DNA from: Brachyspira suanatina
Lineage (GTDB): Bacteria; Spirochaetota; Brachyspiria; Brachyspirales; Brachyspiraceae
Direction of reading: 5' to 3'
NCBI RefSeq assembly: GCF_001049755.1
Contig: NZ_CVLB01000002.1
Span: 357,743-421,742, forward strand
DNA: 64,000 nucleotides
The notes beneath the pieces are model-generated. The model did not search any database. It was not told the origin of the DNA and saw only the letters and a program-made list of their open reading frames with translations. Positions 8,205 to 10,594 of the stretch are shown one piece after another (within the stretch, counting starts at the first letter, position 1; the number at the start of each line of letters is the position of its first letter). The position numbers and the translations under genes were made by a program.

Positions 8205-9062
8205 TCACTGAACTAAACGTAAAGCGCCTTGGTTCATAGTATTAGCTTGAGCCAACATAGCTAAATTAGCCTGACTTAAGATTTGGTCTTTAGCAAATTT
8301 AACAGAAGTTTCAGCCATATCAGTATCTCTTATTCTGCTTTCAGAAGCTGCAGTGTTCTCATAAGCGATCATCAAGCCTTGAGCAGTAAGCTCTAATCTG
8401 TTTTGATAAGCACCAAGATTAGATCTTTGTTTAGAAACTTTCATTAAAGCTTCATCAACTATACCTATAGCACTGTTAGCTTTGTCTATAGAAGAAATAG
8501 AAATACCAGTACCTTCAGCAGTTTGTAAACCTAAAGCAGCAGCAGTCATAGTTCCTATATAAATTCTTCTTCTTTCATCCATGTTTGCACCCATATGAAA
8601 CCACATAGAAGCAACTGGAGCTCCGCCTTCATTAGGGTTAGAGAATCTTCCAGTTAACATGTTAAGAGTATTGAACTGAGCTTGGCTAGCAATACGGTTA
8701 ACTTCGTCTACTAATTGAGAAACTTCAACTTGAATAAGCATTCTGTCAGCATCAGTATAAATACCGTTAGCAGATTGTACAGATAATTCACGTATTCTTT
8801 GTAAGATGTCTTGGCTCTCTTGAAGATATCCTTCAGTAGTTTGAATGAAAGATATACCATCTTGAGTATTTCTTTCAGCCTGACGTAAACCGCGAATTTG
8901 TGTTCTCATTTTTTCAGATACTGCTAATCCAGAAGCATCGTCGCCAGCTCTGTTGATTCTCATTCCAGAAGAAAGAGCAGCCATATCTTTAGAAAGGTCT
9001 ACGTTTCTAAATTTTAAAGTACGTTGTGCATTTATAGCACTAATGTTGTTATTGATGATCAT
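8205..9062 (-). CDS. flaB: Periplasmic flagellar core protein, flagellin FlaB
   Basis: The 285-aa flagellin forms the core of the spirochaete periplasmic flagellum. The conserved N-terminal D0/D1 region ([17 protein letters not shown]... through [18 protein letters not shown] and RTQIRGL) and the C-terminal D1/D0 region ([14 protein letters not shown]...[20 protein letters not shown]) are both intact, with only a short spirochaete-type centre between them. An ATG at 9068 is in frame, but GGAGG at 9069-9073 touches it. The next ATG at 9060-9062 has the right 6-nt spacing and gives the family-typical MIIN start, so I place the start there. FlaB is exported by the flagellar type III system. Expression is likely sigma-28 driven with a long leader (separate entries). 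It is monocistronic. Confidence 0.95.
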
Positions 9063-9310
9063 CGTCATCCTCCATGATATTTATTCAAAAAGGCATCCGT
9101 GCCTAATTGGCAAAAAATATTAAAGAGAATTTAAGGTATTCCGACAATCTAATTAACTATATGAAGTTGCCAAAATACCATTAAATCCTATATAAAGAAT
9201 ATATTATAACGCCAATAAATATATTCTTAATAAATTATATGGTATCAACTAAGCAAATAGGGAGTTCGAGACCGCCAAATACTTGAACTCTCATTTTGCT
9301 ATACAATAAT
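9063..9310 (-). promoter_or_regulatory. Long structured 5' leader of flaB
   Basis: Read on the minus strand, four successive stem-loops fill the roughly 250-nt leader. (1) GAGTTC/GAACTC around 9262-9290. (2) An 11-bp perfect stem AAGAATATATT/AATATATTCTT, 9195-9228. (3) A 13-bp stem GGTATTTTGGCAA/TTGTCGGAATACC including G-U pairs, 9135-9179. (4) AGGCA-CGGA-TGCCT, 9091-9104, followed by TTTTT and then the GGAGG ribosome site at 9069-9073. Hairpin 4 shows GGA in its tetraloop, and the ribosome site contains GAGGATG, the pattern bound by CsrA. CsrA/FliW control of flagellin translation is known in Bacillus and Borrelia; here it is inferred. Confidence 0.6.
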
Positions 9311-9318
9311 TTTCGGCC

Positions 9319-9346
9319 CTGTCGGCATAAAGTTTAATTTGGTTTA
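9319..9346 (-). promoter_or_regulatory. Sigma-28 (FliA)-like promoter of flaB
   Basis: On the minus strand TAAA (9343-9346) and GCCGACAG (9319-9326) are separated by 16 bp, close to the flagellar class-3 consensus TAAA-N15-GCCGATAA. The predicted transcript begins near 9310. Confidence 0.6.
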
Positions 9347-10213: not shown

Positions 10214-10594
10214 ATGACTAACAGCTTAAACCTTTTTATTAAAATTACACCTAGCCAATTACCTGAGAATATTAGAAGATTTATAGCTTCTAATTACAGC
10301 AAAGCTAAAATCGTTTATATCGATAAAGTGAAAGATCAATATGAAATTAAATTAAGTAATGGTATTTATATCAACTTTGACAAAAACGGTTCTTGGAACT
10401 ATATAAGCAGCGATGACAAATTATCTGAAAATATACTTCCAAAAACTATAGCAAGTAAAATTAAAAACATAATGAAAAAATACAATAATACTTATATATT
10501 TGAAATCAATAAAAGAATAGAGTTCTATAGAGTAAGATTAACTAATTCTTTAGAAATCTGCATAAGAAACAATGGTCAATTAATAATGGCATAA
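10214..10594 (+). CDS. PepSY-like (DUF2874) domain protein without signal peptide
   Basis: A 126-aa protein with two repeats of about 55 residues, each with the helix-then-beta pattern of PepSY-like/DUF2874 domains: LPENIRRFIASNYSKAKIVYIDKVKDQYEIKLSNG...FDKNGSW, and LPKTIASKIKNIMKKYNNTYIFEI...YRVRLTNSLEICIRNNG. Most family members are secreted; this one lacks a signal peptide and is predicted cytoplasmic. It has its own promoter and terminator, so it is a single-gene unit. It is flanked by flaB (divergent) and a decayed DUF554 gene (convergent). The precise function of the family is not established. Confidence 0.75.
   Translation: MTNSLNLFIKITPSQLPENIRRFIASNYSKAKIVYIDKVKDQYEIKLSNGIYINFDKNGSWNYISSDDKLSENILPKTIASKIKNIMKKYNNTYIFEINKRIEFYRVRLTNSLEICIRNNGQLIMA

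Follow-up and report, generated by a model that had tools for sequence, protein, structure and literature searches.

The stretch of DNA analysed here, referred to as the window, comprises 64,000 nucleotides of the genome of Brachyspira suanatina (G000; 3.26 Mb) and contains a flagellin gene, flaB, at positions 8205–9062 of the minus strand. The gene encodes a protein of 285 amino acids with the Pfam domains Flagellin_N and Flagellin_C, and within the collection searched its product is 99% identical to that of the nearest named relative, B. innocens. Translation is likely to start at the ATG at 9062, six bases past the GGAGG of the ribosome site (SD), rather than at the ATG at 9068, because the upstream codon overlaps the SD. 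The window flaB is one of two sigma-28 flaB genes in this genome; in B. hyodysenteriae, flaB1 and flaB2 are sigma-28 genes according to the literature. Divergent from flaB, a gene at 10214–10594 of the plus strand encodes a PepSY-like protein of 126 amino acids (Pfam PF11396), and the long gap between the two genes is AT-rich.

An earlier note on this DNA had placed a sigma-28-like promoter about 285 bp before the start codon. The promoter itself was confirmed as a match to the consensus only, with TAAACTTT-N11-GCCGAAAA (9310–9336, minus strand) satisfying the sigma-28 pattern TAAAGTTT-N11-GCCGATAA, but the distance was not, the -35/-10 pair lying 274–248 nt before the ATG. Its spacing is constant across Brachyspira, and a similar element is found at the corresponding position in the sister genus. 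Transcription is predicted from this promoter to start near 9303, and therefore a leader of about 240 nt is implied. A second TAAAC and a second CCGA, paired as TAAACCAA-N12-GCCGACAG at approximately 9346–9320 of the minus strand, overlap the sigma-28 promoter some 10 bp upstream; they are present in both the window and its relatives, and represent either a tandem promoter or chance.

Fold and conservation of the leader

The folding of the flaB leader is real and exceeds chance. Its computed energy is -67.7 kcal/mol (z -2.75), a value equalled by 2 of 200 shuffled sequences, and z ranged from -2.9 to -5.6 in the orthologous leaders of all 22 Brachyspira species whose upstream sequence was complete, each leader folding better than its own shuffles; two further orthologues were cut by contig ends. 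The four hairpins described earlier were each recovered within the implied length, and are named P1, P2, P3 and BS1 in 5' to 3' order. P1 (9250–9301, minus strand) is present in 22/22 species and has a covarying stem, with compensatory changes at 10 of its 15 pair positions, while its apical sequence, UUUGGCGGUCUCGA, is near-invariant. P2 (9195–9228, minus strand) varies in both length and sequence; a stem of 5–17 bp is present in 22/22 species, and these stems differ greatly from one another (e.g., AAGAAUAUAUU, GGGAUAUAUUUA, AAAUGUAUUUA, AGGUAUUUUUAU, and CGGCA). The sequence alignment misplaced it; its stems were aligned by eye, without a covariation score. P3 (9126–9189, minus strand) is a long hairpin of 9 + 13 bp with a covarying stem, compensatory changes being found at 7 of 24 pair positions, and its 3' arm, UUAAAUUCU, shares bases with a strand that could pair with the SD as well.

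Applied to the plain sequence alignment, RNAalifold recovered P1, P3 and the GGA hairpin, with nine pairs changed on both sides. Within the named helices, 98.7% of cells are paired and the covariation score is 0.350, compared to 0.195 in shuffles (0/500 as high) and to no more than 0.081 when the partner strand was slid. The species fall into a few deep groups of relatives (the main group, the B. pilosicoli group, L027, and L028), and these values thus represent a handful of independent changes per helix. Stem covariation among Brachyspira flaB leaders, on which the earlier note had staked the fold beforehand, was therefore found in P1 and P3. No further copies of the leader were found elsewhere in the genome. 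A loop–loop contact linking UGGC, the tetraloop of P1, to a GCCA preceding BS1 was considered by eye and rejected; loop changes in L018 and L019 are unmatched, as are the downstream changes in L013 and L025.

The paired GGA hairpins as a predicted CsrA operator

The last hairpin had been described as presenting GGA in a tetraloop. The GGA is indeed in the loop, but the hairpin, BS1 (9091–9104, minus strand), is better written with a hexaloop of the CsrA type, AGGC-ACGGAU-GCCU, and it constitutes a putative high-affinity CsrA site. The pattern AGGC-ANGGAU-GCCU occurs exactly once per genome in 24 of 26 genomes, the remaining two (G003 and G024) being fragmented assemblies in which the flaB ortholog was not found. 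Only the N of the loop varies, being C in all but G018 (T) and G001 (A); the stem is invariant within Brachyspira, so that the evidence for its pairing comes from relatives and not from within the genus. The proposal of a CsrA-like GGA at the ribosome site also held, since the SD lies within a second hexaloop hairpin, BS2 (UAUC-AUGGAG-GAUG; 9066–9079, minus strand), which makes the better second site. BS2 is likewise conserved except for its N, a T that is replaced by C in L019 and by G in the B. pilosicoli group and L028. Taken alone, this SD hairpin is weak, at -1.2 kcal/mol, and it competes with other pairings in the predicted folds.

The varying N of BS1 and BS2 corresponds to the degenerate position of the CsrA hexaloop; SELEX identified the CsrA site as RUACARGGAUGU presented in a hexaloop (PMC7652899). 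The two GGA motifs are separated by 22 nt here and by 22–24 nt across the genus, within the published range for bridging of 10–63 nt, best above 18 nt (PMC7652899), and the 22-nt spacing would suit a single CsrA dimer. Hexaloops of the form ANGGAN on stems of at least 4 bp number seven in the 128 kb made up by both strands of the window, BS1 and BS2 being two of them. The 69-nt block at the 3' end of the leader is 94–96% identical in L027 and L028, compared to 48% and 74% at four-fold coding sites. As a candidate for an additional CsrA site, the GGA of P3 (UCGGAA) was rejected; it takes part in base pairing, and the sister genus has UCGGUA in its place.

Both csrA and fliW, which the earlier note had listed for checking, are present in this genome, where they adjoin each other downstream of a flgL-like gene. 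The encoded CsrA is 81 amino acids long with R44 retained and a C-terminal extension, and fliW was found in 29/29 genomes of the family. A search of the literature found no work on CsrA in the genus Brachyspira.

In the other sigma-28 flaB of the genus, the leader is short, at about 60 nt, and has a covarying ANGGA hairpin, for example TATGTGTTC-ANGGAA-GAATACATA (also TATGTGTTC-ANGGAA-GAACACATA), TAGTTC-AAGGAY-GGACTA, and GTCC-AAGGAA-GGAC; the GGA spacing in these paralogue leaders is mostly 22 nt, as in the window flaB. Of 62 flaB loci drawn from the collection, almost all of them bearing the label Spirochaetota, 39 had a hexaloop hairpin with a stem of 4 bp or more upstream and 36 had one at the SD, compared to 1.25% of equally long control windows taken from flaB loci. 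A separate selection by spacing, in which a GGA was required 19–25 nt before that of the SD and no stem was required, gave 38 distinct spirochaete flaB leaders. The first position of the loop is A in 32 of these, and the flanking positions pair in 71–95% of them, compared to 37–62% when the arms were dealt among leaders. The sigma-28 paralogue and most of the flaB genes sampled in the Spirochaetota thus show this paired arrangement on stems of their own, and the paired-hexaloop CsrA design recurs in this way across the flaB genes of the phylum.

Long leaders occur elsewhere in the phylum as well. The generalization that most flagellin genes have short leaders does not extend to the whole phylum, since conserved motifs were found far 5' of the CsrA hairpin in at least 14 further flaB leaders of spirochaetes. 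A long leader of a different kind is common to the flaB genes of other Spirochaetota at L066, L071, L074, L075, L078, L082, L085, L090, L099, L100, L101, L104, L106, and L113; it consists of CTGCAAGCAT...ATGGTTGCAG, GGTATTCCCT, and AACCTGGTATTA, followed by a CsrA hairpin, CCTGAT-ANGGAG-ATCAGG. The motif ACCTGG[CT]A is present in 12/60 flaB leaders and in 0.34% of control windows. At 14 related loci, Rfam gave no match at threshold in the flaB leader, its sole hit (L082) lying after the gene. In L003 and L144–L160, a conserved hairpin of varying stem, CTGTTT-TGTAGGGGATGACT-AAACAG, precedes the SD of a sigma-70 flaB3-like gene by roughly 80–100 nt and may be another CsrA-type site. L172 and L173 (genomes G029 and G030, of the same order and another family) carry GTAAC-CUGGCA-GUUAC and UUUCGGUGUUGUG, or a similar sequence, before the CsrA hairpin, elements that are possibly a distant counterpart of P3.

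The reading preferred here is that the 3' third of the flaB leader functions as a two-site CsrA operator within CsrA/FliW control, with P1–P3 most likely acting to protect the mRNA and assist its folding; as a prediction from sequence, it is assigned a probability of roughly 0.78. A CsrA dimer would dock on BS1 and bridge from there to the SD hairpin, thereby keeping the 30S subunit off the message and leaving flaB untranslated. Export of flagellin would free FliW to inactivate CsrA and permit translation, and the build-up of flagellin in the cell would then take up FliW and restore repression. The conserved paired hexaloops, the presence of csrA and fliW, and the recurrence of the design in the paralogue and the phylum all argue for the CsrA control that had been proposed earlier. 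The direction of the effect is less firm. The CsrA of Leptospira binds flaB leader RNA, and in L. interrogans raised CsrA accompanied higher, not lower, flaB transcripts (PMC8668096), so that the sign in Brachyspira could differ; given that the effect on flaB varies in direction between species, repression in Brachyspira is likely rather than certain.

By means of the leader, the cell probably matches flagellin synthesis to filament assembly, and the leader supplies a testable operator for setting flagellin amounts post-transcriptionally. Spirochaete filaments are made of several flagellins. With P1–P3 present on one sigma-28 flaB and not on the other, the two genes could respond differently.

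The 5' domain P1–P3

P1–P3 falls outside what CsrA explains. This 5' domain of about 175 nt is the novel part of the leader, as judged by its conservation in Brachyspira, the recognisable counterpart in the sister genus and its absence from Rfam, no family of which, riboswitch or other cis-regulatory element, reached its gathering score on the flaB leader. A covariance model built on the full leader found matches in 22 Brachyspira genomes and scored 38.4 bits (E 3e-6) and 36.9 bits (E 8e-6) in the sister genus, in which a P1-like hairpin containing GAUUGGxGUC is readable by eye; a match of 47 bits in G030, from another family of the same order, rests partly on the CsrA/SD end.

The role of P1–P3 is most likely a combined one of stability and folding; as a conserved domain of the flaB transcript, it would shield the flagellin mRNA from decay and would also prevent misfolding of the CsrA/SD region. 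That it serves solely as a 5' stability element, with stable hairpins near the 5' end guarding an abundant mRNA from decay, is given slightly less than even odds. A stable hairpin does start a few nucleotides from the predicted transcription start, the P2 stem is kept while its sequence is not, and flagellin is a structural protein produced in bulk; however, the near-invariant apex of P1 and the conserved AUUGUCGG and UUCUCUUUA segments exceed the needs of a generic hairpin.

A second, doubtful alternative is that P1–P3 is a switch lying upstream of the CsrA operator. The AUUCUCU at 9124–9130 (minus strand), a possible anti-SD strand that is invariant in the genus and statistically weak, is common to P3 and to an alternative pairing with GGAGGAU. 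Held in P3, AUUCUC would leave the SD open, and paired with the GGAGGAU of the SD it would close it, the choice being influenced by a protein or ligand that would read P1. AUUCUC can pair either way in every species (probabilities of 0.00–0.89 with the SD and 0.07–0.98 upstream), its complement in P3 is kept even though the 5' arm changes (AGGAU, AGAAU, GAGAGU, GAGAU), and the apical sequence of P1 is nearly invariant on a covarying stem. Nevertheless, chance alone would give about 1.3 7-nt complements of the SD in such a leader, and the three observed were reached by 12% of shuffles; because complements of that length are expected, sequestration of the SD by AUUCUCU counts as a rival only. 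Pairing with the SD is also almost absent from the B. pilosicoli group (0.00–0.03), conservation of the anti-SD strand is not evident in the sister genus (L117), and neither a ligand nor an Rfam match was found. The fuller form of this proposal, in which P1–P3 would define a new class among structured cis-regulatory RNAs, one of the Brachyspiraceae whose P1 apex senses a protein or metabolite while P3/AUUCUC sets access to the SD for both ribosome and CsrA, is viewed with the same low expectation. If true, the switch would form a second layer of flagellin control above CsrA/FliW.

Attenuation of transcription by the last hairpin and its TTTTT, which the earlier note had also allowed for, appears very improbable; comparison supports the CsrA reading well and attenuation poorly. 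The element was listed by a terminator scan, and its U-run does not vary in Brachyspira and hardly does in the sister genus; however, the stem is of only 4–5 bp (-4.9 kcal/mol), against 19 pairs in the terminator that follows flaB, the U-run is missing from the homologous CsrA hairpins of the paralogue and other spirochaetes, and no conserved antiterminator pairing was found in the leader. A regulatory leader peptide, MRVQVFGGLELPICLVDTI, was rejected as the least credible alternative because, despite a frame that is open in the target and most close relatives, its start codon is unconserved (ACG in the B. pilosicoli group and L015, GTG in L017, TTG in L028), and it is without a ribosome site, varies in length and stop, and is absent in L117.

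Comparison with known systems

CsrA-type control of flaB in Brachyspira would belong to a type of system already known, its proposed logic being that of Bacillus hag and Campylobacter flaA. There is also a resemblance to the TwoAYGGAY RNA of Rfam (RF01731), the AYGGAY loops of which gave a sub-threshold match over the 3' part of the leader; at 17.2 bits (E = 4.6), far below the gathering score of 43, the leader is not a member of that family. In the Hag-FliW-CsrA system of Bacillus subtilis, hag likewise has two CsrA sites, one of them over the SD, and fliW is found beside csrA (PMC7652899, PMC6529632). A domain like P1–P3 is not described there, and hag is known here from these papers rather than by comparison of leaders. 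Among spirochaetes, flaB1 and flaB2 of Treponema denticola and flaB of Leptospira have CsrA-like sites at the SD, and the gene order flgN-flgK-flgL-fliW-csrA (PMC9481697, PMC8668096); the literature names the SD-proximal site, whereas the upstream ANGGAN hairpin as its phylum-wide partner was computed in the present analysis.

The flaA mRNA of Campylobacter jejuni, also that of a flagellin, carries two ANGGA stem-loops, the second covering the ribosome site, and both binding and repression by CsrA were shown (PMC4894983). Compensatory changes in the stems, a sigma-28 promoter, and the presence of csrA and fliW extend the likeness (PMC4894983). Its untranslated region, however, is 45 nt long, whereas the Brachyspira leader is predicted to span about 240 nt; it has three conserved hairpins more, and its CsrA sites are predicted ones. 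It is this additional conserved 5' domain that sets the Brachyspira flaB leader apart from the known short ones.
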